64,000 nt of DNA, taken from Climacium dendroides. Lineage: Eukaryota; Streptophyta; Bryopsida; Hypnales; Climaciaceae. This document shows positions 11,107 through 47,281 of this stretch, one piece after another (position 1 is the first letter of the stretch; each line of letters starts with the position of its first letter). The notes below the pieces were generated by a model that was given only the letters and a program-made list of their open reading frames with translations, was not told where the DNA came from and made no database searches. The translations under genes were made by a program, and so were the position numbers. Location: the NCBI GenBank assembly GCA_950106755.1, contig OX467090.1, positions 930,001 to 994,000 of the forward strand. Direction: 5' to 3'.

Positions 11107-11134
11107 AACACTATATTCATTAAAATGAGAGTTT
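11107..11134 (+). repeat. Left terminal inverted repeat of the giant insertion
   Basis: It starts AACACTATATTC and pairs with 47,254-47,281. The first 12 bp match at 11 positions, and the remainder is weaker up to GAGTTT. The adjoining ACTT at 11,103-11,106 is the presumed target duplication. Confidence 0.75.
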
Positions 11135-11326
11135 TCCAAGGAAATGAGAGGTTCTAAATACATAGTTTTCTTTAAACATAGGTGATTTTGTTCTATACGG
11201 AGAGAGAAAAGCAATGCATCATTAGAAAAGAGTGTAAATATTGCAAGTCCATTATGAGAAGAATGGAATTTACCAATAATATTCATCAAATATACAAGTA
11301 ATAGTGTGTACACTATGGAATGACAC

Positions 11327-11426
11327 TTTGGATTCTAGACTTTACAATAGCCTTTTATAAGGAACCCAAAATTACATTTGGATTCTAGACTTTACAGTAG
11401 CCTTTTATAAGGAACCCAAAATGTTA
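11327..11426. repeat. Two tandem copies of a 50-bp unit
   Basis: Units start TTTGGATTCTAGACTTTACA at 11,327 and 11,377 and are nearly identical. They lie 220 bp inside the left end of the giant insertion, and no gene is seen in 11,135-11,516. Confidence 0.85.
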
Positions 11427-11516
11427 TCATGGTCAACAATTGTTGATGTTCAACTCTACATCTACATTGTATCGAATGATGTAACTCATGCTCCGTAATA
11501 AGCATAATGTGCTCTA

Positions 11517-12236
11517 CTACTGTGACATACTCTTCAACTTCTCATATGCCTTCAATATTTCCGGTCCTCTACTGTACTCAGTACAAATTGCGGACCGTTC
11601 TTGAATGATGTCCCACCTTTGCTTCTCCAAGGACCTTTTTTCCGCAACATCCCATAAACAACGGCTCCCTTCTAGTCGGGACTCTCCACTAAGATTTGAG
11701 CGTTGACGTTTTGGAACATTCAAGTATCTGCGTCTATGAATTGGAGGTAGTGGAACCTCCGGTGTGGTCGCCTCTGCAATATACATGGAAGAGCTCCGAG
11801 ATCGCTTCGTTTGGGCACCTTCCGTCAGTGGAGGAAGGTGGGGAAGAGAGGAAGCAATATCTCGACGCACTTGGCAAATCTCACTTGGAATGCCTAAAGT
11901 TACATTTGTTCCAATGCCTGGACAACCTTCCTCCCCGTAAAGCTTTCTTTGAGTCATTCGATCAGAAGTAGACGACAAAGCACGTTGGCCAACGAATCGC
12001 AGCGGTGACGGGGAGCAAAAAAGCCGCAGACGCATCCTACCACTCGGAGGACTGTCGACCACGTTGTCCTCAATAGGCTTCGTCGAGAAATCCATGGTGG
12101 AATTTGCAGTAGCAGCCAAACACAGTAAATTTCCAGTGCTGAGAATGATGTATTGCCCATAGTCTAAGATGGAGTCAGCAGAAGCTGCACAAGCCAATCC
12201 ACCTTTCGGAACATAGGCCTCTGAAGTTCTCATCAT
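11517..12236 (-). CDS. Hypothetical protein in the left arm
   Basis: An open frame of 239 codons starts at ATG ATG (12,236). A splice-acceptor-like TTGATAG lies directly upstream, so this may be a second exon. The product has no recognised domain. The N-terminal part is Ala/Ser-rich, the middle is basic and Pro-rich (PEVPLPPIHRRRYLNVPKRQR), and the C-terminus is helical and charged (EILKAYEKLKSMSQ). It is the leftward gene nearest the left end of the giant insertion. Two palindromes of the TTTAGGG family (12,397 and 12,575) lie in the interval between it and the FCP1-like gene. It is intact over this length, unlike its neighbours. Confidence 0.5.
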   Translation of the reverse strand: MMRTSEAYVPKGGLACAASADSILDYGQYIILSTGNLLCLAATANSTMDFSTKPIEDNVVDSPPSGRMRLRLFCSPSPLRFVGQRALSSTSDRMTQRKLYGEEGCPGIGTNVTLGIPSEICQVRRDIASSLPHLPPLTEGAQTKRSRSSSMYIAEATTPEVPLPPIHRRRYLNVPKRQRSNLSGESRLEGSRCLWDVAEKRSLEKQRWDIIQERSAICTEYSRGPEILKAYEKLKSMSQ

Positions 12237-12396
12237 CTATCAAGCAAAGAAAGCCACAAATTGAAGAAGAACATAATTCAAATTGAGAAAACACTGCTGC
12301 GCAATACACAGACCTAACAATATAAGAACTAAAACAAAAGACAACACCCAGCAAAAAGCTCAAAAGAACTTTGACATGTATATAAGCCAAGGATGT

Positions 12397-12603
12397 GCTG
12401 TTTAGGTCATACCGACCTAAACTGCACAAGTTGAAACGAATGAAGTGGATCACACAACATACTGGAACAAAGCAGTTCAAACATATCACACACAAAACTG
12501 ATATCGCTTAAACGTTCTGAATGGATTCATTCAATCCACTAGTCTACCAGTATCAATTAAAAAATAAGTATATACAATTTAAGGCGGACCGAGCTAAAAT
12601 GCG
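12397..12603. repeat. Two TTTAGGG-family palindromes
   Basis: Imperfect palindromes at 12,397-12,425 and 12,575-12,603 have the pattern TTTAGG-T/GC..(A)CCGA-CCTAAA. They lie between two leftward genes. These are the most diverged members of the family. Confidence 0.7.
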
Positions 12604-12652
12604 CCAGTCTTGCACTCGAACTACACTTCCCTAGGAAACCATAGACCATGAC

Positions 12653-13766
12653 CTAATTCAAACTAGAGGAAGCGCGAACTACTTCCATTAGCACTTCGTA
12701 CTCCTTGCGGTTCCTTTCGTCGCAAAGCATTCGTCGCCCAATTCTTCCAGGACCATTTTCCTTGAATGCCTTCAAACCTTGGTCTCGAGCTATGTGTAAA
12801 CGTTGAAACCAAGGAAGCAAAACATCGAAAAGAAAAGAGTCCCGTGAACCATTCCCTCTATAACTCCACGAATCAGGTAGTATGACATTATGAGGCCTGT
12901 TCATTATATGCTTCACAGGACTGTCATCTACAATGACAGTATTGTCAGACGAGAAGCTTCCTCTTCTATCTTTAAATAACCGGTCTAGATTTTTGAGGAA
13001 TAAGTCCTTGTCCGTTCCTGGTACTTTGAAATAGGTCAACCTTCCCAATCTATCTCTTTATTTTAGTGTTTGGCATGAGTCCTGCCCAAGTATTTGGGAA
13101 GGCGGCAGTCCGTCTCGGAAAAGATATTGAGAAATCAGTTCAGTGGTAGACTTCTTTATAGAACTCCACACTAAAACTGTTGCAAATTTTTGAAGCTCTG
13201 TAAGGAAATTAGAGCAATGAGGCCGCATCCACACAGCCTTGGATCTGACTAGCGCGGGCTCAGTTGCGGAGTGCGGCTGCGAGAAGTCTCTCAATTTTTT
13301 GTGTGACAATCCCTTGGACTTCCAATCTTCGCAGACACATAGAATTCCATTTAGGTCTAGGACAACATTGATCCACTTATCCGCCACCCTAGACCTGAAT
13401 GGACGAACGACGCCCTCCGAAGTCCCTCCACGACGACATGGAGGACCGGATTCCTGCTGTCAAAAGGAATAGAGCGAGGACAGTTAACATTCTGCACCTC
13501 CTCTTCTTGTCGACACTAGAATGATACGAATTCGAGAACCCGTGGACAATAGGGAAATGAACATACCTGCCGCTGAGAGGACTCAGCAGGAACATCAGGT
13601 TTAGTCTCAGGTTGAATGTCAGTCGTAACCACCTTCTTTGATTCACTTTGAGGAGGTCCTAGCACCAGCATTTCATCAAGGGCAACAAGCTCATTTTCCA
13701 ACACAGGAATTGATGGTGCTACAGAAGAAGCGCAAGTTGTACAAACATTGAAAACATTCTGAAGCC
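12653..13766 (-). pseudogene. FCP1/SCP-like HAD phosphatase-domain protein
   Basis: Two leftward exons are visible. Exon 13,766-13,567 lies between an acceptor (TTGCAG) and a donor (GTATGT). The second runs 13,456-12,653 after TTTGACAG. The second carries a C-terminal-domain-phosphatase fold: motif I reads VVLDLNGIL near 13,360, motif II is WSS near 13,155 (ATVLVWSS), and motif III reads VIVDDSP near 12,930, followed by PHNVILPDSW. Family members dephosphorylate serine residues, classically of RNA polymerase II. Motif I has Asn where classical enzymes have the second Asp, a variant also common in plant FCP-like proteins. A TAA at 13,060-13,058 interrupts the domain in frame. The 5' exon structure beyond 13,766 is uncertain, and it may be joined to the methyltransferase gene upstream. 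Confidence 0.7.
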
Positions 13767-15097
13767 CTGCAATAGAAGAATTAAGATAGAATGTTATGTA
13801 AGACAACGATATATTACAGCCTCAACAAATGAGTGTTAAAATACAAAAATGATTACAAAATTTGGAACTCCATGGTTTAGTCCACTAGAAGTTTCCGTGT
13901 CCATAAAAAAACTATGTACACTATATCTACAAATGCAGCTCTAGAATACACATCAGCTCGAGTCGAGCTACAACAAATGACATCGAGTGATTACTTGGCA
14001 CAACCTATTGGTGGATCATTGGCGCGGTCGGTGGTACTTCCGGGCACTACCCCTTCTGGATCCACAGACAAGATCTGCCCACTATCACACTGCTGATCTC
14101 CCTTGGATATCCCCTCGCTTGCAGCTTGTGCGCCCTCCAAAGTCGATGTGACGTTCTTGGGCGATGAGGAACTCTGACCTCCACGTGTTTCTCTCACAGG
14201 AATAAGTGGAGGGATAAAATCCGGAGGCCCCGGTGGAAGACGCGGAGGCGTAGCAGCAGCCCTCTACGGAACGGAGACAGCACTATCATTGGATCCTGAT
14301 GGGTTGTTTCCGATGAAGAGTTGCTGCGAAGCTATTGGTGGTGGAAGCGTGGCAACCGGTTGGGCTTGATTTCTGTCCAAGTACGCTTGCCACATTACCC
14401 AATTATGTTCACGCTCCTCCCTATTCAACCTTTGTTCCTCTAGGAAGGCCTGCGCTAGACCCGCAAAGTTTTTAGTTGATTCCTTTTGGAACTCTAAATT
14501 TTCCTCCCGGTCTTTCTTTTGTTCGCGCCTGATTTCCTCTTGCTACTTCAAGACCACCACCAGCGACATCGACAAGGCCTGCATATGGTGCACTTTCTTT
14601 TTCTTAGCAGGCCTAGTTCTGGAAACCGGAGTTTCAGCATCCATAGGTTGAACTGCCGTGTTCTGCAGCCCTGTTGAGCTTGACGACCCTAAATTGGTCT
14701 GCGATGCACGAGCACCTGGCGTGGTGATTTCGTCAAACACGTCGTAATCCACCGCAATGTCTTCTACGTCGAAGTCATCCTCTTCCTCCTCATTTTCATC
14801 TTCCTCGACGTCTTCCTCTATACCCCTCTTCCCCCGGTTTTGGCCAAGCGAGGCAGCAGTCTCCGAGCGACCCCTTGGTCTGGTCGAATCAGGGTTGGAC
14901 TGTGACTCACGTTGAGTCGATACAATGTCTTCGTCAACAGCATATGAGGAGTCGAGGAAGTCATCCTTGTCCAACGATAAACCGACCGTGGCAATATTTT
15001 GCCAGATGTCTGTTTCGCAATCCGGGACAGCAGCGAAAACATCTACCCAACTCATCTGCAACCAAACATAGCATGCAGAATCTCAGAGTTATTGACT

Positions 15098-15324
15098 TGC
15101 AATTTAGGACGGTCCGACCTAAACAGCATCTAAGGAACACAGGCTAGGATAGGAAAATAACGTCGACTATTATGACAATTAATCATTGAGTTCCAGACTA
15201 TCTATGCATTTTAGGGCGGTCCTCCCTAAACTGCAACCAAGATCTAGAAATTGTTCATTTACTACAAGTAAGCAGTAAGCGTCAAGTACAAGTTTGCAGT
15301 TTAGGTCGGTCCGACTTAAATTGT
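15098..15324. repeat. Three TTTAGGG-family palindromes in intron 2
   Basis: Palindromes at 15,098-15,128, 15,205-15,234 and 15,295-15,324 all lie in the intron 15,338-15,056. The first, in transcript direction, begins 14 nt after the donor. The last ends about 42 nt before the acceptor. Confidence 0.85.
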
Positions 15325-16790
15325 AGCGATGTACTTACCAGTGCAGCACATGTCAATTTGCTCCCAGCAAAAACAGAGAATACGCTTGAACCCGGATGGT
15401 AGAACTTCTTGATGATCCCAAGGTAGAATTCCATTCGCAGCTCCTTAATATACATTCTAAACGGTAGCTCATTGTACCTCTTAGATTCTTTGTTAGTGAT
15501 TGTATCCGGAGCTCGAAATTCCGGTTCAATCCGGATCTGCATTGGCAGGTCTCTGCTTTGGAGAAAAATGAGTGGTATTTTCCTCAGCGCCCTTGCCGAA
15601 TTCGCTGGGAGATCATAAAGCCTCTCATTTTTCGCTGGGTAGTAATCGGAGAAACTCCGATTATATGTGCATAAGACCTCATTTTTCTCAACGAACCCGA
15701 GGACTTGAGATAAGTCGGTCTCGTCCTCGATGATGAACAACCAGGTCTTGACTTCTTCAAGCAAAGGTTCCTTCATTTGTTGCTGAGACATTAGTACTTC
15801 CAGGAAGAACGGCTTCTCCATCGTGGAGCTCTCCTTCTCCAACACTCCGGGAATCGATCGAAAATCGATCACTCCCAAACCGATCAAGCTCATTGTCTCT
15901 GGCGTCCAAACATCCGCCGGCCAGTTCTCGTGCGTGTTGTAACGTATGCTGTAAGGACGCAAATGTGCGACCGACGAAGGAATGCAAAATTGGTTCTTTT
16001 TTTCCAAAAACACTTTGAAGAAGGCCTCTATCTTGGGATCGATGGTTGCTGCTGTCTTATTTCTCCCTCGGGTTTGCTTGGTCATCGAAAAATATGCCTC
16101 ACCCGGCCTTTCGAGCAACAGATTCATCGTTGCACTAGTGAAGCAGCGGCTCCTCTTGAACTGTCGCCAGTTCTCCGGAATGAACTAATTCCTTGCATTG
16201 AACAAGTTGAGTTCTGGATAGATCAGGTGAAACTCTTTTTTCACCTTCTTCTCCCGCTTCACTCTCTCCACCCATTCCTTGGCGCTGTAGCAGTCTTGTA
16301 CAACCGTGGACACCGGTTTGATTGTCACTTTCGGATATGGGTGGTGGCGACTTGGGCCGGAGCGATTGAGAATGTGCTTCGCCAATCTCTTCATATCGTC
16401 GTAGCTGAGATTTCCAAGGGGCCTGAAGAAGTCCCTGCTCATTGCGCAACTTTCTTGTTTCCAGTTTTCCTTCTCATTGAACGTCACCTTCGTCTCTGGA
16501 TCGATGAGCTCCCCGTGTGCAGCACTGATGATAACTTCACTCCAAACCTCGTAAACGTCGTCGGGCGCAGAAATTATTTTCAGTTCGTTTGTAAGCTTTA
16601 GCTTTTTGTCTGCACCCTTCTTCTTTGAGATCGTGAAGCTTTTATTTACATCAATCATGGCGAATCTGAGATTAACTGCCTTTTCAAAACTCTGCATAAG
16701 GATTGACTAGATTCATTAACTTGTGATCTTATCATAAACTACACTACAGAAGGAGCTCTCTCAGAGAGCAAGTACAAAACTGTAAGCATA

Positions 16791-16820
16791 TGCAGTTTAG
16801 GGCGGTCCGCCCTAAAATGC
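16791..16820. repeat. TTTAGGG-family palindrome in intron 1
   Basis: Near-perfect palindrome around core TTAGGGCGGTCCGCCCTAA, in the intron 16,824-16,692. It starts 4 nt inside the splice donor. Confidence 0.9.
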
Positions 16821-18298
16821 TTACCTTATACTTTTGCGTTAGCGCAATATGGGCTTTTCCTCGTTCTGAGGGTCCACTAGTTTTGTCTCCTTTTGGTGGT
16901 GCCGGTCTTCCCATGGAAACTCACACAGTCCTTGCTCCCAAGATATTTGTTGCCCAAGATGGCGTAGCGGGCTGAAAGTAGTTGGTCCGATTATAGTATG
17001 CGGAGATTGTCCTCAACATCTCCTTATCGAGTGACCAAACCACGTAGCATTTCCAGGTTCTGAAGTGTTTTTTCACTTCTTCGTTCACCATGCTTTCCTC
17101 TTGCATCATCAAGTGGCTTGCAGCTACGCTATGCTAGCCATTGATGATGTAGAAGTCTTTGTCCATCACCTCCTCCCATCGAGGTAGATCTCTTTTGCCT
17201 TTTGGCAAGACCGATGTGACGCAAAGAGTCTGCTTCACACTCTTGTCCGGCATGTTGACAAGATAATGGAGCATTTCTTTAACAATTTTGTCCTCCTTCA
17301 CGCGTATGTTGAGTTCGGCAGGTGCCTCCTTCAACTTTCCAATTGGCAGCTCTTTCTTCTCACCAACTCCGTAGATAAACGCGGTGGAGTACTTCTCCCA
17401 TAAGTTCTTGTACAGAGCGCTTATATCTTTGTAGTTTGGCTTCCGCTCCATCTTGAGGGCTTCCGGAACGACATTCATTTCTTCGAGATAGCTTGCCGAC
17501 TCCACGCCTGACTACTCCGATGTCCTCTCGACTGCCTTCCTTACTGACCCGGATGCCAGCAGACTGCTTTGAGGTGCTGTCGCTGGAGATGGTGGGGGCT
17601 TCCTGTTTTTCTTACCTTTACTTTGTGACCAACCAGCCTTTTTCCCCGTTGATGGCTGACCTTCATCTTGAGTAGTTGTCTCCACGGATACCGTTTGTAG
17701 AGCCATGAAGGATCTTTGCATTGCCATCCTCTCCTTGATGACTACAAAGGAGTTCATCAGGAGCGTGATCTTCGTGCATAGTTTGCTTCCCGTCAGTGGA
17801 CTTCCGTCCATGTTGTGGTACTCGCCATTGTCTATTTTGCGCTCCAACTCTTTGATCTCCGAACTGTATGGCGTTGGCTCTAGACTCTCCAAGAATGGCG
17901 ATATGTTGAACCAAATCTTCTCTGAGTTCAAGAGTAATGTGAAGTGGTACTGATTGCCCGCTGGGAATGCGTTGTTCGTGGTGACGTAGTGAATTTTGAT
18001 GTTTGGGAATTTCTCCGAAGACACCCGCTTCACTTTCTCGTCGAATGAGATTGGGAGATACGCCTTGGAATTTCGGTACTTCATGTTGAAGTGCATGTTG
18101 TCTGTATGGGGCACCATCTTCAAACACCACGCGTCCACCTCTTTTGGGTTTTCAAACTCCCACCAGTCCCCTTCTATCATATCCTCGTCTACATTTGGAC
18201 TTTCTTCTTCGACATCCTCTACTCTTTTGAAGTGCGCCTTGAGTTGATCCATGTATTCCTCCATTTTGAGCATGGACAACTACAATTCAGTCTATTGT

Positions 18299-19091
18299 TG
18301 CGGTTTAGGACGGACCGAGCTAAACTGTTGCTAGACGTAGACGCACATTTTTCTTGTTGATCTTTATTAAGTCAATTTTGATTGCGCCCTTATTTATTTT
18401 TGATTTGGTAGTCTTCTGTTTGTTGCCTACGTTTCTCTATTAGTCTGCAGATTAGGGCGGTCCGCCCTAAACTGCTGGGATTATTCTTTGGTTTGTAAGC
18501 ATTATTGTTTAATTAGTAGAAGAGGCATTGAGTTTTAGAAGTATTTTATCTACCAATCATCACTGAAATTGTTTAATGTGTCTGATTTCTTTAATCATTT
18601 TATGGTAATGTCTATGCTTCTGTCGTTAGTGTAGTGCTTTGGAGTGCAGTTTAGGGCGGTCCGTCCTAAATTGCGCGTGGTCTAAATTCTCGATTTTTAT
18701 ATGTAGCATATATATAGGGTTGATCAATTCTGAATATCAACAGAAAGGCAGTTTAGGGCGGTCCATCCTAACTTGCACATGGACTATATTTTTTATTTTT
18801 CAACGTAGCATATGCATAGGGTTCATCAATTCTCATGATTTACAGAAATGCAGTTTAGGACGGTCCGCCCTAAATTGTGCATGGACTACATTTTTGATTC
18901 CTTACCAAGTTAGCGTAGCTTATATGTAGAGTTGATCAGTTCTCATTATGAACAAAAATTCAGTTTAGGATGGTCCGCACTAAATTGCGTATGGACTACA
19001 TTTTTTATTTCTCAGCGTAGCATACATATAGGATTGATCAATTCTCATGATCTACAGAAATGCAGTTTAGGACGGTCCGCCCTAAATTGCA
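18299..19091. repeat. Array of seven TTTAGGG-family palindromes, left arm
   Basis: Palindromes start at 18,299, 18,446, 18,645, 18,748, 18,849, 18,961 and 19,061. Each is about 30 bp, with arms TGCAGTTTAGGRC and a GGTCCG centre. The last five are spaced about 100-112 bp, and their intervening DNA is itself repeated (AGCATATATATAGGGTTGATC-like). The array lies directly upstream of the ParB-methyltransferase start at 18,273, in the promoter or 5' leader position. Confidence 0.95.
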
Positions 19092-19099
19092 GACGTTCT

Positions 19100-19180
19100 A
19101 TTTCTGACTTTGCACTCAATACCCGCTTGATACCCGGGGATATTTAGGTGATACCCGCCTAAGACCCGGAGATATCATGG
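19100..19180. repeat. TACCCG-rich stretch
   Basis: TACCCGCTTGATACCCGG, GATACCCGCC and AAGACCCGGAGA follow the palindrome array. AGACCCGGA is found inverted at about 42,347 beside the right-hand array. The pair may mark an insertion boundary, but the match is short. Confidence 0.4.
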
Positions 19181-19240
19181 TCATATCCATCAAATTCTAT
19201 GCGAGGGTTCACACGTTCTTCAACTGTAAAGCATGATAAT

Positions 19241-19305
19241 TAGAACCCTAAACCTCAAATCCTAAACCCTAAACCCTAAATCCTTAAACCCTTAAACCTG
19301 AACCA
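19241..19305 (+). repeat. Interstitial telomere-like repeats (CCCTAAA)
   Basis: About eight degenerate plant telomere units (AACCCTAAA, AAATCCTAAA, CCTTAAACCC) run in one direction. They are similar to the tract at 24,397-24,462. Confidence 0.85.
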
Positions 19306-19619
19306 TTTATTAACATCCAATGCAAAAGTCCTGACCTGCCAAATAACACAATGATAGGTTTTTGATACTTGTCTCCTTCTACAAATGAAAAAATCCTCAA
19401 AGCTGCTACCACAAACGTATCCAAATCACACTGCTGCAAATCCAAGAGTGCAAAATAAGGAGTGAGAAAACAAAAAAAGTACAATTGCAACTAGTTAGTC
19501 ACATGTAATTTGGGAGACAGGCAATTGATTCATCCCCAAGTTCAACAGAATTGCAACATCCAGATGCAATTGAAACCAGTGCTTCCAATTGTTTTCCACC
19601 ATTCTATAAATAAAAATGA

Positions 19620-20330
19620 AACCCATGCAGACACACCTTGATCTCACGTTTTGTGGCAAACAATCATAATAACCAAATCTCACGATTTCTCACGGTTTCT
19701 CACAGTGTCAAGTCGGTGGGCGTGTACAAATGCCCTAAACTACACAAGCACACCGCAAACTGACCGAACACGTCCGCCTCTTTGGCAAATTAAAATCAGT
19801 AGCTTCAGCATGACCAAAACTGACAGACGCAGATGCACATGAAGTGAAGAAAGAGGTGAACCTCAATGAATGATGCTGAAGCAGGTGAGCTTCTTAACCC
19901 TAACGTCAATGTCCCTCGGCCTTTGGGTCGCCTGCAGACCTGATCCGCAAATCCGCCACCAAACACCTTGTTTTTGAATTGCATGCAAACACATCCTGAT
20001 CTAAGTTTTGTGGCAAACAATCATAATAACCAAATCTCATGGTTTCTCACGGTTTCTCACAGTGTCAAGTCGGTGGGCGTGTACAAATGACCTAAACTGC
20101 ACAAGCACACCGCAAACTGACCGAACACGTCCGCCTCTTTGGCAAACTAAAATCAGCAGCTTCAACATGACCAAAACTGACAGACGCAGATGCACATGAA
20201 GTGAAGAAAGAGGTGAACCTCAATGAATGATGCTGAAGCAGGTGAGCTTCTTAACCCTAACGTCAATGTCCCTCGGCCTTTGGGTCGCCTGCAGACCTGA
20301 TCCGCAAATCCGCCACCAAACACCTCCTTT
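19620..20330. repeat. Tandem duplication, 357-bp unit, two copies
   Basis: Sequence beginning TTTTGTGGCAAACAATCATAATAACC near 19,650 recurs 357 bp downstream (near 20,007) with few differences. The unit ends in AATCCGCCACCAAACACC. Open frames within it are duplicated and look incidental. Confidence 0.9.
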
Positions 20331-20579
20331 CTGGTGAAGTGAACAATGAAGTGAACAAAGACGTGAACCTCAATGAATGATGCTGAAGGAGGCGAAAGGA
20401 AAGACAACAACAAGAAGCGAAGTACAACGCCAATAGAAGGCGGAGCAAAATACGAGCACAAAGTAGAAACAAAGACTCGAAGTAGGAGCACAAAACAGCA
20501 GCAATGAGGAAGAAGAGGAGCTGGAAGAAAAGGAGAGGCAGCAGCGACGACAAAGAGCACTCGACGTCAACCTCCCCGC

Positions 20580-20700
20580 CCTGCACGCACCCCCCCCCCC
20601 ACTTGCCCCGTACCCGCCCCATATCCGCCTCGTACCTGCCCCCTACCCGCCTTGTAAACCGCCCCCTACCCGACTTGTAACCCTCTCATATTCACCCAAT
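20580..20700. repeat. C-rich minisatellite
   Basis: Irregular units such as CCCGTACCCGCC, CCCTACCCGCCTTGTAA and CCTACCCGACTTGTAA, preceded by a run of about ten C. The unit resembles the TACCCGCC stretch at 19.1 kb. Confidence 0.7.
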
Positions 20701-24390: not shown

Positions 24391-24396
24391 ACTGGA

Positions 24397-24462
24397 CCTT
24401 GAACCCCAAACCCTAAACCCTAAACCCTTAAACCCTAAACCCTAAACCCTAAATCCTAAAGC
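24397..24462 (+). repeat. Interstitial telomere-like repeats (CCCTAAA)
   Basis: About eight units of AACCCTAAACCC with small variations, in the same orientation as the tract at 19,241. This is the best telomere-like match in the window. Confidence 0.9.
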
Positions 24463-29343: not shown

Positions 29344-29364
29344 TGTTGCAACTGGAGGAGGCAC

Positions 29365-35738: not shown

Positions 35739-35951
35739 TCCCATTGTATTGGATTTCCTTTAAAGGCACATCGCTTGTGAGCGTTTCTTATACAATGCAT
35801 GTCCTTTGATCCTAAATCTTTTGCCTCTGTTGTGTCATTTCTCATGCAATAATTTTTTACAAAATCCTAGTATATTTTAGTTTCTAGGGGAATTTGGATC
35901 CATTGATGAGAGTCCAGGGCTATTGCTCAATTTCATGGTTGAACCTCGCAG

Positions 35952-38900
35952 ATGGATGGGACTCCTACAAACCTGTGCCACGAGGAGACTATTTTGGAAA
36001 CGTCGAACACCGATGATTCAGTGCAACCACCCATTGCAGGTGAAGATGAAGGTGAAGAGGAGGGAGACGCAATGGAGGAGGACGTTCTCGATGACCTATT
36101 GAGGGCTGATGACAAAGACTCGTTGGAGGACGATCTCCGACAATATCACAAGGTAGACTCTGTGAATACCATTGCTTCGCTGAGGATGAAGCCACCTCAC
36201 CTCTTTCAACTCCAAATTTCGCTTTGCCGAATGGTTCCCATGCCCATGGTGAGGCCTACCCTCTCGTGTGATCTTGATTTCATGGAGCATGAGTTCAGCA
36301 AGGGTTACAGAGAAGGAGCGGCAGTTTTCTACGTCACTACTACAGATGAGGCTGGAGAGAGCTCAAAGTTCACAGAAGAGGAGATAGCGAAGTGGGATCC
36401 ATTATGGAAGTCAAAAAATGACGCCTTCAATGCTAGTGTCGAATCCAAACCCAAGTTGAGGTTTTTGAAGAACATTAAATTCTATGTTTGTGATGGTAAT
36501 CACAGACTCATCTCGTGGATGAATTACATTACCAAAAAACACTCGAAAGACGAGGAGTGGCATTACGCAGTGGATTCCATTGTACTAGATACCAAGGGCA
36601 AGACCGAGCTAGTCATGCATGTCATGCATGACATTAACAAGTAAGTGTGTAATCTCCCTCTTTGGAATTCTAATGCCTCAGTTGATTTCTCAGGAGGGGG
36701 CACTCTGTGACATCCATTTATTTATGTTCAAATTCCATATGTTATCCATTGTTGTTAACTCAACATTATCATTTATTTTCTTCACATCCTTTCTTGGAAA
36801 ATTTATTTGTATGTTGCGTAACACTAAGTGAACATTTTCTTTGTCAACTCTATAACATGCATTTCTTCATATTCAAATTGTTTATGTTTTATGGATTTAC
36901 CTTTTCAAAGGTCTACATTTTCTTTTTAAAAATAGACACACTTAATAAAATGCTATTATTACATACCCTATAGTTGTTAGAAGACATAGAATGGTATTTT
37001 AGGACCCTGGAGCATTAAAGGACAAATTATACTGCTTATCTCAAATGTTTTTTAGGCACCCTATCAGTTGATTGCATGTAGTATTTGACTGTTGCCGCTC
37101 ACTTCAGCCCCCAAGTTAGGTTGTTCTTATAGTTTGTGATATGTTGCAGTTTGTGGGTACAACAATAACTGAAATCGCTTCTGTGCATATCAGGTCCACG
37201 GAAGACTCACACGTAAAGACCAATTTGGTGTACACGTTATACAGGGTTCAAAAATATGGTCTCCTTACTATTGAGCGGTTCAAAGAGATGCTCAGGCCAT
37301 TGGAGGTCCGACTGTGTGGGGCACACAAAGCTAAAAAGACTTGGTATTCTATGCCACTACAAGTCTTCACGTCGTTTGTTTTCAGGGTAAGAATCTTTGT
37401 GAATGCTTCTCCCTTCGTTTCTATTGTATTTGTCTGTACCATTTTATTATACAATCATATATGTGTAATTCTTTTCTATCACACCTTTGCAGCAAGAAAT
37501 TGCCCAGTCAGCAGATGCAACAAGGCGGAGGTACAATGAGATGACATCGGAGGACGACAGAACTCCTGAGGAACTGGCGCATGCCATAAGATCCGGAGCT
37601 CATGAGAAGACCAGTAAACTCAACGTCAAAATGTCTAAGTTGGTTGCGGTGGCGAATCTAGCTAACAAGCAAGGTTTTCTAGATCATGAGGTGATTTCAT
37701 GACCTACATCATAAACTGAATCTATTGATGTCATGCAAACCTCAGAATCTAACATCCTCTGCTTTCCTTTTGTTGACCAGATTGAGAAACATTGGAGTTC
37801 CAATGAGGTTCCGGAGATGACTCTAGAGAAGCTCCAAATGGTGGCTACTTGCAATACCACGGTAGATCACAAGATCAAATTCCTGAAGTGGTGGAACTCT
37901 TCTACACCATCACGTGATGCTAGACGTTTTCCGCCTAGGCCAGTGTCAGAGACACTACTTGGTCCTTTCTTGAATCGTTGTGTTTGGTACGCAAGGGTAA
38001 GTGATTACCTATTCATGTAATTCAACTTGAAAGCCATCATAATTCATATTCACTAGGATATTGAGAAATTAGAATTCTTGGAAGGCAGTGCATATCATAT
38101 GATTTTGGTTTTGGCATCTCTTTCTACAGATTGAAGATGCAGTTGTACAATACTTTGAGGAAGTTGTCAAGCAAGACAACATCATCATCAATATGAATGT
38201 TCCGCTTCAACCAGAAACCTTATCGGAATACTTGGAAGGGTGGAGGAGGAAAATTTGGGATCACGGGTTCTTGGCTCATCTTAGAGGAGCTAAGTACTTC
38301 AAGAAAAGCAACAACTTCAACACTTATGAGGGGTCCCAACAGGCAGTGAAGAGGGTCCTTTATCGGTATGTCTTCAACTGGATAAAAAAATATTCATTTG
38401 GAAGTGACTATTTGAATTAAAAATCTCTTGTCATTTGGCTAAAAATACATTGTTGAAGCAGGAAACCTATTAGAGATGAACGAAGGGAAAAAATAGGGGG
38501 TCCTTAGGCTACCTGTAGAACATGCCTCGGATCCGAGGCATGCTCTAGAAGTAGTTGGGGGACCCCCATTTCTGTCCTTTGAAAGGTCTACAATTTAATT
38601 TTTTGATCTTCTATTTCTTGAGCCATAAGAAATGTTGCTTTGAAGCACATGTATACGAGATTGAAATTCGTCTTCTGTCTAATTTGATTTTTACAATTCG
38701 TGCTTACCATTCTTTGTTTATCATGATGCAGCTACTTCAAGTTTGAACTAGAAGGAAAAGGAGCCATCCAGAGGGCAGACCTTCTTCCATTCCTTTCGGT
38801 CTTCCTAGATCACAATTCCGCAAGTTGCATGTACACGGCAAATCAGCTCAAAACATTTACCACGGCTCATCTAAATGGCGGTGGATGGTACATTGATTGC

Positions 38901-40939
38901 CCTATATCGTACACGCATCCATCGGAGGTACAACTCCGCGATTCTTTGAAGGACATTGGAGCGGTGGACATGGATGTTGATGAGTTTGCGGGCCTCACCG
39001 AAGATCAAAGGAGCAAGGCAATTGAAAGGAGGAACAACGTTGACAAGAAGAAAGCGAATCGTCTACAAATTGCTTTGGATAACAAGCAAAAAAAGGAGGC
39101 ACAGCGTTTGGCAAAGATAGAAGAGAAGGAGAAGGAAAAGGAGAAGGAGAAGGAGGAGAAAGCAAAGGCAAAGGGGAAGAAAAAAGATGATGGTGATATC
39201 GTCGTTCCTACATCATCAGCGGTCGATCAGAGCTCGCAGTTGGTGTAGGGAAGTCATAGTGGGATGAAGAGGAAGGCTGTGCTTGCCGAGTGGACGGAGG
39301 ATATGGTGACACAAGGCACGCAGGTGGTTATATTAGATGATGACGACGTCAAGTCGGAGGAACTAATCTTGAATGTATCCATTGTTGACATCATGGACAA
39401 TTTGGAGAGTTCACCACCTAATTCTTATATTGAGGTCATGGACTTCATTCGAAAGGTGTGTGGCAACATGAAGTTCAGTTTGTAACTTCATAGGATTTCT
39501 TGATGAACAAATAGTTTCATTTTTTATCTTCTAATAACATGTACAATCACTGGACTGTAGGCAAATGCAGGAAAACCTCGTTCATTGAACGGTAGGGTGA
39601 GCCAAGAGCCTTTGGTGGATCTTATTATTTTTGATTGCCCAGAGAACCTGCCCGTACCACTCATCTCTGAAAAGCATGTTTCGGCATGGAACTCGGACCC
39701 AACGTGTGCGGGAATGCAAAATGCATTTCACTTTGCTGAGGAGAGCTTACAAGACAACGGCTGCGTTCTTGTATTTCACTCATATAGCCTTCAATCGCGG
39801 CGTATGTTTGCGGGACTGAAGAACGTCTTCAAGAAGTTGTTGATGAAGAAAGAGTGGTTGGCATTCAACCAATTGGACCTAGTGTCGGGTATTACACTTG
39901 GTCAGACGGTAAGTTTTTCTAAATGTATAGCGCGCATGTCATTTGGTTTAGCGGCATTCTCCCTTGCACTAAACCATTTTTTGCCTTTTTGCAGACTGTG
40001 AAGTTCGGAGTCACCCTTTTTGTGAAGGATTTGGGTGAGAAAAAAAAATCAGCCTTCACATTCAGGCAAACTGAGGCCATGACGAAAGCAAAGTGGAATC
40101 TTCAGAGGAAGGACATGGTCATCAATTATATCACCGAGGAGACAATGTTAGTCAACAAGGAATCAAAAAAGCCTTGGCGCGGGCCGCGAGAGAAAGATGC
40201 AAAGTTCCTACAATTTTTCATCGAAGGTTGCTCGGATGAAGAAGATGTAGTTTTGGACTGCACCACTGCTACAGGTGATTTAATACTTTGAAATGAGAGT
40301 CCTAAATTAAAATGTTTGTGTGTATGTAAAATCTGTGAACTTCTAATGCTCGCATGGTTGTACTATAGGTGCATCGATTCTTGCATGTCGTGGCACTGGA
40401 CGGCATATTGTGGCTTTGGAGGAGGATGAGAATATCTTCAAGGGGGTTCTCTTGCCAATGAAAAAAGCCGCTCCAGTGCAAGAAATGACACAAGCTCCGG
40501 CAAAAGTTTTTGCCGCTCTTGATCTGGATGCCGTGCACGTGGAACCAATGGTGTTTACACGCAACATTAGACCTAGTAAGTAAGTTTCACTTTTGGAAGA
40601 CATGTAGATTTTTGTATTCAACAAGTATTGCATTTCATAAATCAATATAACTAACGTTGCATTGTTTGTTTTTGAAGGAACAAAAGAGTGATGGATGAAC
40701 ATTGTGTGAAGAAGATTAGAAGACTTATTTTGAGTCCCGAGAAGTCTTACGATCTTCCAGTGTATACCGAGAAGATGGCATCACAGTATGAACGACATGG
40801 TTGTAGAGAGCCTAAGCCTTCCAAACCCAAGTATGCTACAAACGTAGTGAATTTTCTAGACGTTTCAGCTTCTGAAGGTGAGGAGACTCTAGAGTCATCC
40901 TCGAGTGAGGTTTCTATGGCCAACTCCACCGGCACTTAG
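35952..40939 (+). CDS. ParB-like plus permuted amino-methyltransferase-like protein, nearly intact
   Basis: About ten exons join in phase: 35,952-36,640; 37,194-37,385; 37,493-37,692; 37,783-37,996; 38,131-38,367; 38,733-39,455; 39,561-39,909; 39,995-40,274; 40,369-40,579; 40,678-40,939 (ends approximate). The N-terminus is acidic. A ParB/sulfiredoxin-type motif, IKFYVCDGNHRLISW, lies near 36,490. A Lys/Glu coiled coil is at 39,020-39,190. Then DLIIFDCPEN (39,622) sits where the DPPY-type motif IV would be, and VVLDCTTATG followed by GRHIVALEEDENIF (from about 40,250) matches the SAM-binding motif I region. This is the permuted beta order of N4/N6 amino-methyltransferases. Catalytic DPPY and FxGxG residues are altered, so DNA methylation is possible but unproven. 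The only stop is a TAG at 39,246. A GGATCC-family palindrome lies in the intron at 38,496. It appears related to the gene at 13,991-18,273. Confidence 0.65.
38496..38567. repeat. GGATCC-family palindrome in an intron
   Basis: GGGGGTCC...CATGCCTCGGATCCGAGGCATG...GGACCCCC lies in the intron 38,368-38,732. The central 20 bp are a perfect palindrome, and the outer arms are more diverged than at 34 kb. Confidence 0.95.
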
Positions 40940-42390
40940 ACTCATAAGATTGACGTATCTTATGAGTTGAATTATGTGTATTGATTTCTATGTTGATTTG
41001 ATTTTGTGTGTTTTATGGCTACAAGCTGCAAGCATTGTGCTTCTCGTTTGATATTCAATGTACATGAGAAATGAAGTAAAGAAAAATGATCTTTAATGGT
41101 AAACAATCAATAGTTGATAAAAAAAAAGATGCTAGATCTTGGGCTCATTCATTTTCCTTCCCATTCTTAGACCACTTCATGTGTGACAACAAATTAATTC
41201 TTATTTATGTGAATAATGTTCTCCACAATAATGGTAGTGCCTCTAAGAGTCCACAAATGACCCTTAACTTACATACATATAATTATGAATGACATCCACG
41301 GTCATAGAACCTCGGTTGACTCCAAGTCCACGGTCATGGGTTAATCACAACTTCCCCCTATCATATACAAATTTTTCCACAAGTTTTCTCATCAAAAAAA
41401 CTTCCCGCTCATAGGCTCACAGGCTCACAGGCTCCTGCTCCAGGCTCTCACAATAGCAACCCTGTTTTATTCTGAAACGCAAAGTCAATTTCTTTACAAA
41501 AGTTCAATACATTCTTTGCACATGCATTGTTGCGTGGTCAGGAAAAGGAAGGAGAGAATGTCTCACCTACTTCTGGAAATCATTAATGTTAGACAAAAAA
41601 TCGCGCGCAAAATTTGCTTTGTCAACATTGTGATTTGTGAAAAAAAATTCCAATAGTTGACTTTGCAAATCCACAAACACCTGAAATAGGCTTGAATCTG
41701 AAGTAAGCACTGTCAAGTGGACGACTATTTTTCTAATGAAAGACTGCACGAACTTCTTCCAAAGATCTTGTGGCCTGAAAAAGTGCTACAAAGTGGAAAA
41801 TGAATCTCCCGAAAAAAAATTTGAAATTTGAATTCATTTTGTTTTGGCGCGGCCCTCCTCCAGCACCAAAATTTTGTTCCCCCCTGCGCCAAAACTTTGC
41901 TCCCCCCGGCGCGGGTGCTTTTTGTATACGTGTTGAGATTGTTAGTGTTGTTCTCATTCTCATTTGGCTTTTCTTATGTGATCGTGAACCTGTTCAAGCT
42001 CTCTGTTATTCATTGTTGTCATTTTTTTCTGTTGTGGTTTGAAGACTTTAAATGCGGCACAGTTGGACGAGGCGTTCTGCAGTTCAAGGTGCACTTTGCG
42101 TACAACCAACAGATGAAAGCATTTTCTTTGTCCAGACATTTCTAGCACTCCAGTACTTTGTGCATAGTCATGTAACGCAACAGATTTCAAGTTTGACAGA
42201 GTTCTCCTCTTCTTGTACATTTCAGTTTCGTATTGAGGAATTTGCAATATGCTCATACATTTTCAAGTACATGTTCAGTTTTAAGTCATCATACTGAATT
42301 CAATTTCGGCGGTGTGAATAGGTACCCTGGTTTGTAGCCGTAAAATCCGGGTCTATATTTAGAAACTTCTTGGGCTACATGTTTTTGAAG
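40940..42390. other. Spacer without a gene
   Basis: No coding sequence is supported. A two-copy, 24-bp GC-rich repeat (GGGGGGARCAAARTTTTGGYGC on the minus strand) lies at about 41,853-41,906. Confidence 0.45.
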
Positions 42391-42393
42391 ACG

Positions 42394-43535
42394 TGCAATT
42401 TAGGACGGTCCGTCCTAAAACGCAAGTAGACCATGTCATGATTTGTATTTCATGTCGAGCATATTACGTTTTTGTAAGAAGTGCAGTTTAGGTCGATCCG
42501 ACCTAAACTGCATTGCGATCGGAAATAATTTTATGAATATTACAACAAAATACACTAACACTGAATCCAATTTCCTTGACCCTATTCATGCAGTTTAGGG
42601 CGGTCCGCGCTAAATTGCAGATTGACAAACCTAAATATTTTCTAAAGACTTAAATAAGTCGGGTTTTTTAATAAATAATCACAAAATCAATAGTTTGGAT
42701 ATGCACTTTAGGGCGGTCCACCCTAAAATGAAATGCATCAATGCCTTAATTTATATTCTATATAGCGAAATTTTTACTAGTGGGACGAACAGTTTAGGTC
42801 AGTCCGCCCTAAATTGCAATGCATCATTTACCCACTGAAATAAAGACAATTTATAACTATGCTATATATACTGTCATTGCAGTTTAGGGCGGTCCGTCCT
42901 AAACTACATATTGACAAACCTAAATGTTTTAAAAGCATTAACTAGGTGGGTATTGCTATATCTTCAATACACAGAGAGTCCGGACATACACTTTAGGACG
43001 GTCCGCCCTAAATTGCATTGCAACAGTTTCATTACTTGCACAACAGTGAACAAAGCAGGTTCTTGTTCAATTTGGAAAGGACTTCGACAACCCTCACGCA
43101 GTTTTTACCGGTCATGTAGTTTAGGGAGGTCCGCCCTAAAATACACTTCTTCCATGTTCAATTTATAGGATTTCAGGATGTCGAGTCTGAAATATTTCAC
43201 ACTATGTTCATACAGTTTAGGTAGGTCCGCCCTAAATTGAAATGCCACAATTTTAGTACTTAAGAAAGAAAATATGAGGGGATGTCTTATTTAGTTTCTA
43301 AAATCTGACAAAGTGGTCATGTTATTCGCCTAAAACCGCCACACCATTGATATTGACAGATTAAGAAAATGAATGAGGTCTACGCCATCTGCGTTCAGAA
43401 AACTTCACACTATTGTGAAGCAGCTAAGGGTTGTCAGCCGTACAATGATCATTAATTTCTATCAGATTGGTCTTCATTGATCTAGAACTTTGTTTGTCTA
43501 GTTGTGCAGTTTAGGGAGGTCCGCCCTAAACTGCA
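42394..43535. repeat. Array of ten TTTAGGG-family palindromes, right arm
   Basis: Palindromes start at 42,394, 42,482, 42,589, 42,702, 42,789, 42,878, 42,987, 43,114, 43,211 and 43,504. Spacing is about 87-127 bp except for the last gap. The core matches the left array (TTTAGGRNGGTCCGNCCTAAA), but the spacer DNA differs. The array lies immediately upstream of the DUF7869-like gene, mirroring the left arm, where the array lies upstream of the ParB-methyltransferase gene. Confidence 0.95.
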
Positions 43536-43632
43536 TTTACATAAATTAATAAATTACATTAAATAAAATTTGACAGGTCTTTCTTCATCTATTAATTTTC
43601 TATTCGGATTGTGGTTTATGTTTACAGACAAT

Positions 43633-46470
43633 ATGGGCTCCGTTGATGTCCCACTTGACCTTATGGACTCATTTGACGATGAGCTCCAAGTACTTCAAGA
43701 AATGAGTGCTGGCGTTCCTGAGTGTGAAGGGCTTCCTCGACAAAAATGGAATACAAGGTTTGTTACTTTGTATAATGGAGAGGGTGTTTTTGTTGGAGAA
43801 GGTACTTGTCATAGTATGAATTCAAATCTTGTACTTGGTGTCACTAGACCTCTTGGAGACACTCATGTGTCAGTGCACATTTCAAAATCACATTCTGAAG
43901 TGGACATTTCTGAAGAAAATGTCTTTTCATTAGTAGCTTGGCCTATTGAGCTCGTGCACTGTCGTGGTGCTAGTTTACGCGATCATGAACAGAGAGACAA
44001 ATTCAACCGTCTGCAAGCAAGTCTAATGAATCCACCATCATCCAAATCTGCTAGGCCCTATGCAAGTGCCAACCGAAATCCGCCTCGTGAAACTGTTGTC
44101 AAAGCAAAAGACCTCCTTACACAAGAGTCAATCAACATGGTATCTAGCAAGGTGTGTTGCAATAAGAATTGTGTCCAACCGTTCCCGAGGGAGAAAATTC
44201 GGGCATTTCGAGAAAGAATGTACAAAAATTCAACATTTAAACACCGTGCCTTCATGAAGACTGATATGCACAAACAAATTCATGAAGGTGCACATCGAAG
44301 GAAGATGGTTACAATTGAAGGCATAAATGTGTGTTTGCGCGCATTGGGCCTTATTGTGGGGGTTGTTGAGTCTACATTCTATCGCTACTCAAAATACATG
44401 AAGCTCGATCGAGAAGCAAGGGATCATGGTAATATAGGATTGTTGAAGCCTAGAGAACATACCCTACAAGCAATAGCTTCTTTAAAGTGCATCCTTGACA
44501 GGAAAGCCAATCATATGCCGCATCGCACCCGGAGTTTGAAGGCAAGTGAGAAGGTCGTCTCGAAGATTCTTCCGGACTCATTTCAATGGAAGGACCAATT
44601 GAAGAAACTCAATGATTTCAATGTGGCTTTCGGATTGAAGGAGATCTCCACTTCGAACTTGAGTAAAATAAGGTCCACAAAGTTCTCAGAGTTCGATGTG
44701 AAGAAGCCAGGGGATAATTTTGCTCAGTGTGCTACTTGTGACAAGCTAAATGAGCTTGTTAAGGGTGCTATCAGTGGATCTCAAACTGCTTTGAAATGAG
44801 CAAGAAGATTGGATAGGCATCTTACCATTGCTCGTGCCCATAGGGATGTATATTACATCAATCGAGAGTTGTCATTCAAGTCTCCGCATGAATGTCTTAC
44901 AATCATACACGACAAAATGGATCACTCGAAAACCGCTTGTCCTGTGTTCTCTCACAAGAGTAAAGAACTCCATGGCCTCATGAAGCTACCAGTTTCTGTG
45001 ACGGGCATGCTTGCACATGGTCATGCAGATGTACGCTACGCGCATTATAGCTTGGATGTCTACTCCCATGACTCCAACTATACCGTTGAATCAATGGCAA
45101 AGTTGTTGCGAGATTTAGAGTTAGTTTCGAAGTCTTCTTCTCGAGAGTTGTTCAAAAATTCAAAGTCCACTAATTTGTTTAAGGCTGTGTTAGAGGGTGC
45201 AGACATGTGCAACATGTCACTACCACCGTTGCCAAATACTTTAGCTCCAGCCATGCGGCTACCGCCCATTTTGAACGTGCAGATGGACAATGCAACTGGA
45301 GACAACAAGAATAGATATGTTTTCTGTTTTTGGTCTTTACTTGTTGCAAACAAAATCTTCCGGGAAGTGTACGTGAACTTCATGATTGTGGGTCACACAC
45401 ATGACAACATAGATGCGTTGTTTGGAAGATGGAGCATGGATTTGAAGAAAGACAACTTCTCAACATTACCAGCACTAATGAAGTCGTTCATGGATGTGGA
45501 TTCCATCCCCGTTATCCCTCACCTTATTGAAGAAGTGCCCGATTTCAAGGGTTTTATAGCAGGGTCACTTGTTGATGGTGATGACATCCTCATTGGACAC
45601 ACAAAACCACATCAATTGAAGTTCTACCTGGACTCAACGGGGTGCCCTGTCATGAAGTACAAACTTCTTTGCACTGATGCAGAGTGGTTAGAAGAAGACG
45701 GAAGAGGCATCAAATTATGGAAAGAAGATGTTGAAGGGCGAAGTTTGTAGCCACGGGGTGAACCGCTGCCTGTTCCGTTGAAGCCTATGAAAGGCTTAGA
45801 TGACATCGTCAAAGGTGTGTCGGGGTTCGTGAAATATTGGAATAATTTATGCAATGCAGACGTCATCGGGGATTACCTAAGGCGTTACGAGTACATAGTG
45901 AGGTACTGGCGTGGCGTCAAGGCAGCGTTGATGGAACCATTACCTACCTTTGGTGTTTTGAGAGATGGTTTTTGTCCAACTTCACGAGTAGTAGCAGATC
46001 AAGCGGATGAATTGAACGAGGATGGTGAAGAACGTGAAGAGTTTGGGGAAGATGACCCGTACGTTGGGCCGTTGAGTGGTCGTCCAAATCCATCCTTTCG
46101 GGTAGCTCGAGATTTGTTTGAAGGCTATTTTGTTGCGGTTCGCCCCGCAGATGGTGACACTCATCCGGTATAGATTGCAAGGGCATTGTCTGATCCGAAC
46201 AACAGCCCAGAAAATCCGAATTGTGTCCTTATTCAATATTTCCATCTAACATCAAGGAATCAAGATGTTATAGATTTCTACACCGGATGGGACAGCGAAA
46301 GAGGTCTGCGTTGGAAGGTCGATGAAACTGAACCTCCTGTTTGGCAACACACTGATACTCTTATGACAGCGTGGAAGTCGAGGATCAAGAAAGACACTCA
46401 GGAGTGCATGATTAAGATCCCTGCTATACAAATTGAAGTCATCAACGAGAGCTTGACTTCCTATAATTGA
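43633..46470 (+). pseudogene. DUF7869-like large protein, candidate transposase of the giant element
   Basis: A single rightward frame of about 945 codons starts at the ATG at 43,633, just after a TTTACAG acceptor, and ends at TGA 46,470. In-frame stops at 44,797 (TGA), 45,748 (TAG) and 46,171 (TAG) break it, with the frame kept throughout. A Cys pair region (KVCCNKNCVQPF) lies near 44,150. The DUF7869-type core has QMDNATGDNKNRYVF (45,280) and NFMIVGHTHDNIDALFGRW (45,378). Such D...HTH-D spacing suggests an RNase H-like, DDE-type fold, but this is inference. The C-terminus has FGEDDPYVGPLSGRP-type and GWDSERGLRWKVD motifs. It is the only large protein in the right arm, next to the terminal repeat, so it is the best transposase candidate. 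Confidence 0.65.
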
Positions 46471-47253
46471 GAAGCCATATGTACATAAGGGTATATGTGG
46501 TATGCTTTATTTTGTATTTCCCATCCACATATTGTGTGTAATGGATGGAATTTATATATTGCAGTAGATGGCATATACTTTAATTTTGTTGGTTTGGATT
46601 TATAGTTTGGTATTGTTTATATGCTTTGAAATGTAGCTTTTGTTTTTACAAAACAAGAGTATTCACTTTCAATTATAATAAATTGCTTCTAAGTACATTT
46701 GAGTTTTATTTTTTTTCTATGTTTTAATTTATTTTTGTTGAAGCACTTATGTTATAATATCTATGACGAATATTATTGATAATTTGAAGCAACTGGAAAA
46801 AATGGATAGTGGTTATAATCACTATGTGTTTGATAATTGTGTTAAGTAATTGTCACAATTCGAATAGGGGGCCGATTGATTGTTACAACTTTCCTAGCTG
46901 CATGTATAGGTCATTAGGCAGCACCAAGTCATGCCTATCCCTCAACTGCTTATTCATATTCAATGGGAATTGAATTCGGACCATTTGAATGACATGAACA
47001 ATCCTTTACAACCAACTTCAAAGCTCATGACTTGGTGTTCAAAAAGTAAAGATTTTTTGTATATTAATGTTAGCATTAGTGCTTGAAATTTGACCTAATG
47101 TTCGAATTAGAGACTTTGTATGTCACTACACTCTAATTTTAATGGAAATTACATTAAAAAATTAGTACCTCTAATATTTGTCAACCTAAATTATATACAA
47201 AACATCCATTCGTATTGGTATCAAAATCGACAATATTATTTTGGGCGAGTCCT
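46471..47253. other. AT-rich subterminal spacer
   Basis: Nothing coding is recognised between the DUF7869-like gene and the right terminal repeat. Confidence 0.5.
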
Positions 47254-47281
47254 AAACTCCCAAAATTTTGAATATAGCGTT
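47254..47281 (-). repeat. Right terminal inverted repeat of the giant insertion
   Basis: Read from the right it begins AACGCTATATTC and is inverted relative to 11,107-11,134. It is followed at 47,282-47,285 by GCTT, the second copy of the presumed 4-bp target duplication. Confidence 0.75.

Follow-up and report, generated by a model that had tools for sequence, protein, structure and literature searches.

The window studied here, a stretch of 64,000 nucleotides of the moss Climacium dendroides (assembly GCA_950106755.1, contig OX467090.1, positions 930,001 to 994,000), raises the question of what kind of DNA has separated two fragments of a Ty3 retrotransposon by 36 kb. The original prediction interpreted this DNA as a giant transposon, inserted at once as a unit of 36,175 bp and carrying its own set of genes. 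We sought further copies in the same 412.6-Mb genome, in which the window is part of a contig of 29.5 Mb. This comparison revealed that the 36-kb insertion is real, but that it consists of two nested elements, an outer one of approximately 19.2 kb and an inner one of 16,951 bp, which was inserted later. Both belong to families with defined ends, target duplications and many copies. It is very probable that the locus represents three stacked insertions: the Ty3 retrotransposon would have come first, an outer DNA transposon of the cut-and-paste type would then have entered its gag gene with duplication of 4 bp, and a Mutator-like element of 17 kb would later have entered the outer element with duplication of 10 bp.

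Two nested elements in a Ty3 gag frame

The frame broken by the insert is assigned by domain profiles to the gag part of a Ty3 gag-pol: Ty3_capsid was matched to the right of the insert (1.7e-13), and a zinc knuckle and protease to the left. The window also contains a second, uninterrupted Ty3 copy, in which positions 50,985-51,846 correspond to 10,245-11,106 (97%) and positions 49,525-50,988 to 47,282-48,745 (96%). The two fragments are therefore contiguous on this copy, and they share an overlap of exactly 4 bp (50,985-50,988 only). The unbroken copy reads CTCAACTTAC-GCTT-GGAGTG, with a single GCTT, and the broken one reads CTCAACTTAC-ACTT, then AACACTATATTC...GAATATAGCGTT, then GCTT-GGAGTG. 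The uninterrupted copy confirms the prediction that two minus-strand fragments fit end to end with only 4 bp present twice, and its coordinates were right. The inverted ends, which are part of the insert, had also been correctly recognized as foreign to Ty3. The difference between ACTT and GCTT possibly results from CpG decay.

Compared with the intact copy, the Ty3 host is rearranged (9,123-10,245 forward, 10,245-11,106 backward), which leaves the insertion site unaffected. As a separate observation, this host (9123-11106, 47282-48745) is palindromic, with a forward long terminal repeat and gag placed head-on to the backward gag piece at 10,245; it is possibly a product of self-integration.

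The composite nature of the insert is evident from a whole outer copy on another contig (C15), which has a length of 18,600 bp and is flanked by ATAC on both sides. Its gapped alignment to the window covers 11,107-24,460 and resumes at 41,465-47,281, and the part at 24.5-41.5 kb is missing from C15. The junction reads GAGATTTTATTTTTGAAACGC in the C15 copy and GAGATTTTATTTTG, the insert, and TTTTATTCTGAAACGC in the window, so that 16,951 bp have been inserted in the window and 10 bp duplicated. A single 36-kb unit is ruled out by this copy together with the size distribution of the outer family (see below). Thus, a giant DNA element does lie in the Ty3 gag, but not as one insertion of 36,175 bp, and the predicted single gene set (ParB-methyltransferase, FCP1-like and DUF7869-like genes) is in fact split between two nested elements of different kinds.

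No right end was found at the distance expected of a 36-kb copy in 20 stretches fetched from other copies. At one locus (L009), the outer right arm starts at the place expected of a 36-kb copy, after another insert. This locus (798-5583, 6943-10000) comprises an outer copy with a diverged inner-type element (mostly 65-71%), which ends approximately 1.4 kb before the matching outer part; elements of the inner type may hit outer copies repeatedly. An inverted-repeat search within 19-32 kb of the window yielded nothing usable.

The outer element and its DUF7869 protein

The outer element is bounded by inverted ends of 12-13 bp (AACACTATATTC / AACGCTATATTC), whose local alignment score was equalled in 1 of 1000 shuffles. 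All 20 of the other left ends fetched begin with AACACTATATTCATTA, and their flanks are all different. The sequence GAATATAGCGTT is exact in 13 of the 16 other right ends located by script and occurs with one-base variants in the remaining three; on contig C16, where the pair of ends was read by eye, the right end is AAATATAGCGTT. CpG decay was considered as the source of the A/G difference between the inverted ends and dropped, because A is found in 20/20 other left ends.

A search for the same termini at other loci, which had been proposed as a check, found many copies with differing flanks. Genome-wide, 163 matches (up to 3 mismatches) were obtained with the 34-mer that starts at the left terminus, compared with 0 for the reversed control; if all 163 were complete copies, they would amount to an estimated 3.1 Mb, or 0.8% of the genome. 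A 994-bp left-end probe gave identities of at least 96% over its full length in 40 of 40 scored places (window included); of 42 matches to the right-end probe, 40 were full or nearly full, with identities of at least 97%. The first-look candidate numbers obtained with the end probes of both elements (495, 726, 205 and 499) are not copy counts.

Duplications of 4 bp flank all 19 outer insertions examined, 15 of them perfect and four with one transition (the window, C37:19828067, C41:28451016 and C2:9027313). When the ends of 18 of these 19 insertions were swapped, 2/306 pairs were perfect and 20/306 had at most one mismatch, the two perfect ones being due to the double occurrence of ATAC. Of 39 left ends elsewhere in the genome, 18 could be matched to one of the listed right ends at up to 60 kb, and in 13 of these pairs the distance was 18.5-19.6 kb. 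A further 65 left ends (one present also in the earlier set), set against 22 listed right ends, produced 15 pairs within 80 kb: seven at 18.4-19.8 kb and the rest at 4.3-72 kb, the long ones, judged by size alone, being possibly chance pairs.

The likely transposase of the outer element, judging from its sequence, is the DUF7869 protein encoded in the right arm (PF25273; 2e-44, 152 bits against a cut-off of 26). Among 71 database homologues, all seven with an organism name are from mosses (Physcomitrium patens and Ceratodon purpureus). The acidic residues D418, D421, D543 and D585 (P0003 numbering) are kept in 24/25, 25/25, 25/25 and 25/25 aligned relatives, respectively. A first look at the genome gave 1,821 candidate places for DUF7869; 150 of them were scored, and every one of these exceeded the cut-off. 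Long open frames of this gene are present elsewhere in the genome. At L003 and L007, two loci with diverged relatives (68-73% identity), the ends are GAATATAATGTT and GAATATTGTGTT, and this similarity indicates that such ends go with the DUF7869 gene family. The protein would use a DDD/E site of the RNase H type in acting on the AACRCTATATTC ends, with joining staggered by 4 bp.

The left arm encodes an FCP1/NIF-like phosphatase, whose two halves match PF03031 in the window (7e-8 and 1e-5); in the C15 copy nearly the whole domain is matched (5.8e-15). When 11 of 150 NIF places were checked against 40 outer left ends, seven were located 1,637-1,687 bp from the left ends of other copies, and four were not close. 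A palindrome core is represented in the window by 46 strand matches, i.e. 23 sites (0.02 matches expected); within the window these palindromes are confined to the outer element, and similar arrays occur in the C15 copy. More speculatively, a protein of the element could bind to the arrays, which would lie close to the promoters of two transcription units of the outer element, and the phosphatase might act on the host transcription machinery.

Independently of this element, NIF/FCP1-like genes form large open-frame size classes of about 266, 268, 276 and 283 amino acids (aa) among 150 scored of 963 first-look candidates in the genome, which suggests many transposon-borne phosphatase families.

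The inner Mutator-like element and the state of the copy

The inner family was traced with probes for the left end (24,506-25,305) and right end (40,665-41,464). Among 69 other matches to the left probe, 24 begin at probe base 8 or 9, and the element end was reached in all 40 scored places of the right probe. Local alignment of the two ends (250 bp each) scored 25, whereas the best of 200 shuffles scored 22. For nine of the 39 remaining left ends, a partner was present among the right ends listed, at a distance of 15.2-18.5 kb in seven cases and of 35 and 49 kb in the other two. Duplications of 10 bp were present in all four copies examined, including the window, two being perfect and two having one transition. 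The three copies besides the window show (i) CTACCCACAC twice, (ii) AGGCTGCAAC/AGGCCGCAAC and (iii) GCCGGGATAG twice; in two of these pairs, the shared terminal CCCTG places the last base of the element one position beyond the midpoint of the fetched stretch.

The putative transposase has 31 database homologues, with D547, D613 and C642xxH645 in 20/20 aligned, and a SWIM-like CxC..CxH was seen by eye at the 3' end of the gene and in one homologue (P0079). Target duplications of 9-11 bp and a transposase with a D..D..C(2)H core and a SWIM motif are hallmarks of Mutator-like elements (MULEs). On the basis of its duplication and motifs, the inner element is assigned to this group, and the SWIM/CxxH protein would be its transposase.

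The second main gene of this element encodes a ParB-like stretch followed by a DNA methyltransferase. The latter scored just under the cut-off of PF01555 (7.3e-6, 26.5 bits against 26.7). The sole Pfam match of the preceding stretch was a weak one to DUF1015 (0.0043), so that the term ParB-like is a judgement by motif. The ParB part was located at 39 other places; a right end was listed no more than 20 kb away for 24 of them, and for 20 of these 24 the distance was 5,431-5,489 bp (5,465 bp in the window). This near-constant distance identifies the gene as a fixed part of the inner family. A database search with the exons joined by eye found no homologues among the best 7,999 candidates scored, which is weak evidence. 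It may be speculated that the element is protected from silencing by its own ParB-methyltransferase, which would bind to its DNA and mark it.

Approximately 6 kb to the left of the window (G000:C39:923434-924233), there is an inner right end 100% identical to that of the window and on the same strand (1425 versus 1443 bits), and the ParB part of this copy is merely 97% like that of the window. This pattern would fit local hopping or gene conversion.

In-frame stops interrupt both transposase genes, the phosphatase gene and one ParB-methyltransferase exon. An altered genetic code was ruled out, because all three kinds of stop occur and relatives are uninterrupted at these positions. With both transposase genes interrupted, the window copy would need proteins from other copies. 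Among 13,676 sites aligned between the window and the C15 copy there are 561 differences, which include 429 transitions, 112 of them in CpG context. The predicted features are presented in Table 1.

Table 1. Features of the Ty3 host, the outer element and the inner element in the window
Feature	Position	Strand	Basis
Ty3 gag/protease fragment left of the insertion	10245..11106	-	matches second Ty3 copy; domain profiles
Outer left 4-bp target duplication, ACTT	11103..11106	+	empty-site comparison
Outer element, left arm (end includes left 10-bp duplication of the inner element)	11107..24513		collinear with C15 copy, with gaps
Outer left terminal inverted repeat, AACACTATATTCA	11107..11119	+	same start in 20/20 other copies fetched; 34-mer matches
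Outer open reading frame (ORF) A, 239 aa, equal size in C15 copy	11520..12236	-	open frame; no Pfam family in scan
Outer FCP1/NIF-like phosphatase gene, one in-frame stop	12656..13459	-	PF03031
Outer ORF C region	13994..15082	-	no convincing Pfam family
Outer ORF D region, several open stretches	15285..18279	-	no convincing Pfam family
Palindrome array with 7 sites (21-bp core TTTAGGNCGGTCCGNCCTAAA), upstream of ORF D	18304..19086		6 further sites at 12401-16816
Inner left 10-bp target duplication, TTTTATTTTG	24504..24513	+	comparison with C15 copy
Inner element of Mutator-like type (16,951 bp); inverted ends imperfect, roughly 45 bp as judged by eye	24514..41464		missing from C15 copy; end probes
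Putative transposase gene of the inner element (Mutator-like), with D..D..CxxH core, SWIM-like CxC..CxH and in-frame stops	25310..29364	-	homologues; conserved residues
Fold-back repeats with CCTCGGATCCGAGG cores, inside inner element	32596..34638; another 38483-38580		repeat analysis
Inner gene for ParB-like + N6/N4 DNA methyltransferase protein, with several exons whose boundaries were set by eye	35943..40580	+	PF01555
Inner right 10-bp target duplication, TTTTATTCTG	41465..41474	+	comparison with C15 copy
Outer element, right arm	41465..47281		collinear with C15 copy
Palindrome array, core TTTAGGNCGGTCCGNCCTAAA, 10 sites upstream of DUF7869 gene	42399..43530		motif search
DUF7869 protein of the outer element, probably a transposase of the DDE/D type; three in-frame stops	43567..46467	+	PF25273; homologues; conserved acidic residues
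Outer right terminal inverted repeat, AACGCTATATTCA on minus strand	47269..47281	-	window and other right ends
Outer right 4-bp target duplication, GCTT	47282..47285	+	empty-site comparison
Ty3 gag fragment right of the insertion	47282..48745	-	matches second Ty3 copy; Ty3_capsid
Empty target site (GCTT) in second Ty3 copy	50985..50988	-	sequence comparison

Two runs of CCCTAAA, the plant telomere unit, flank an AT-rich part of the outer element (21-25 kb; 26-30% GC) at 19245-19304 and 24389-24477; the latter of these has a greater length in the C15 copy. Outside the elements, the region 58072-61356 is AT-rich and contains two sets of nested inverted arms (72-76%); it is perhaps an old inverted-repeat element. 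No tRNA genes and no Rfam families at the gathering threshold were found within the window.

Alternative explanations and relation to known transposons

Several observations weigh against the interpretation developed above. The inner duplications were read in only four copies, and the Pfam models of Mutator transposases and of SWIM had no match at E≤10 in 20/20 members of the inner transposase family and none in the window pieces (one member matched the transposase zinc finger zf-Tnp_2 at 6.9, which is chance level). A structure comparison search detected no significant match of DUF7869 to any solved structure, and its catalytic role consequently rests on motifs. In seven coding stretches, the differences between the window and the C15 copy are distributed over codon positions 1, 2 and 3 as 98, 95 and 130, a mild third-position excess that points mostly to decay after insertion and to at most a weak trace of selection. 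Nor is there, for other subfamilies, a clear excess of linkage between genes of the FCP1-like and DUF7869 types: among the best 150 of each, at least three pairs within 45 kb have the expected arrangement (chance level 1.26, largest 5) and at least five are arranged otherwise.

According to one alternative explanation, the inner part was acquired long ago and the 36 kb now move as one unit. Large copies do persist in the outer family, as those of 44, 48.6 and 55 kb likewise have perfect 4-bp duplications, and giant algal families, which often contain nested unrelated elements, are described as having moved on with such inserts (PMC12477816). However, the typical outer copy has about 19 kb, inner elements at other loci have 10-bp duplications of their own, and no inner left end lies within 30 kb of any of the 39 other outer left ends on the same strand, among the matches listed; this explanation is very improbable. 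An integrated large virus, Maverick-like or derived from a giant virus, might be suspected from the size, the mixed gene content and a methyltransferase of prokaryotic type. Against this, the part of the frames scanned with Pfam contains no polymerase, capsid or packaging domain, the transposase-like genes and duplications fit transposons, and a search of the IMG/VR viral contigs with the DUF7869 protein, the one protein so searched, found no relatives; a viral origin is hardly credible. The outer element could also be moved by another protein, e.g. the product of ORF D, with DUF7869 as an accessory gene. ORF C and ORF D are devoid of a convincing Pfam family (relatives in the protein database were not sought), which leaves room for this explanation, as does the dependence of the DUF7869 assignment on motifs. 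Yet a transposase-like acidic set is seen in DUF7869, the sole outer protein aligned, and diverged relatives of its region retain the same kind of right terminus; we therefore consider an accessory role improbable.

An alternative of greater weight, although still unlikely in our estimation, assigns the outer element to the CMCT/EnSpm-like clade, for example to the Lanisha superfamily already named in Repbase. Lanisha possibly comes from moss; two of its authors reportedly work on the moss Ceratodon, a genus represented among the DUF7869 homologues. Duplications in the CMCT clade have 2-5 bp (PMC12730594), a range including the 4 bp found in 19/19 outer insertions. On the other hand, the outer ends are AA..TT (AACAC...GCGTT) and not the usual CA..TG, and no Pfam match to transposases of the EnSpm type was obtained. 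In this clade, whose termini are mostly CA..TG, the interval from the second D to the last E contains C(2)C and H(3-4)H (PMC12730594); in DUF7869, judged by sequence alignment, CxxC (357/360) and HxxxxH (417/422) are placed before or at the first apparent catalytic D. The motif order may therefore differ from that of Lanisha/CMCT, as far as these are described. Two other assignments were rejected. KDZ (Zisupton) elements generate 8-bp duplications (PMC12730594), in contrast to 4 bp for the outer and 10 bp for the inner element. None of the 19 outer duplications (ATTT, TTGG, GCAT, AGGT and others) is TTAA, which is the target of piggyBac and Kolobok.

The reading of two nested transposons finds parallels in several described systems. 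Sola1-1_Ec32 of the brown alga Ectocarpus is a 21.5-kb DNA transposon with a protein combining ParB-like and N4/N6 methyltransferase parts (PMC12477816), and it resembles the present case both in this protein and in the nesting of unrelated elements within giant transposons. The window's ParB-methyltransferase is, in contrast, carried by a Mutator-like element with 10-bp duplications in a land plant, and not by a Sola1. The original prediction knew of no described plant DNA transposon that combines such a gene with FCP1-like and DUF7869-like ones; the presence of a ParB-methyltransferase gene in a giant transposon is already described for the brown-algal element, and similar cases for green and red algae (PMC12477816). 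The inner element shares with MULEs a long duplication, a SWIM-like motif and the D..D..CxxH core (PMC12730594). It also shares an epigenetic accessory gene with the Vandal MULEs, which encode their own anti-silencing protein (PMC12730594, PMC10398659). It differs from both in its size (15-18 kb in 7/9 paired copies), in a transposase too divergent for Pfam, and in the accessory gene being a ParB-methyltransferase. In size and multi-gene layout, the outer element is similar to the giant EnSpm elements of red algae, which have 16-20 kb and 4-5 ORFs (PMC6431247), but its transposase-like protein is DUF7869 and not EnSpm, and its duplication has 4 bp.

Thus, ParB-methyltransferases in giant transposons (PMC12477816) and giant multi-gene algal elements (PMC6431247) are already known. 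What is most novel is the definition of ends and a target duplication for DUF7869 proteins. No description of DUF7869 or of the outer family was found in the literature searched, which excluded most subscription papers and Repbase. The outer family is a candidate for an unclassified superfamily unless it is identical with Lanisha, a proposed superfamily cited in PMC12730594 and the existing name most likely to cover it. A DUF7869 relative (P0020) and a Mutator-like relative (P0102) are each listed on a contig of 348,180 bp, which suggests that both are on the same contig. A broader interpretation, to which we give somewhat less than even credence, combines an undescribed superfamily with a DUF7869 transposase, AACRCTATATTC-type ends, 4-bp duplications, an FCP1-like phosphatase and operator-like palindromes with a ParB-methyltransferase anti-silencing module common to unrelated giant superfamilies from algae to mosses.

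The locus also calls for caution, since two gene sets would have been fused if this window had been taken to contain one 36-kb element. The large orphan family DUF7869 gains a concrete, testable role, for which ends and a target duplication are defined, and the presence of a ParB-methyltransferase in a Mutator-like element of a land plant makes element-encoded DNA marking against silencing testable.

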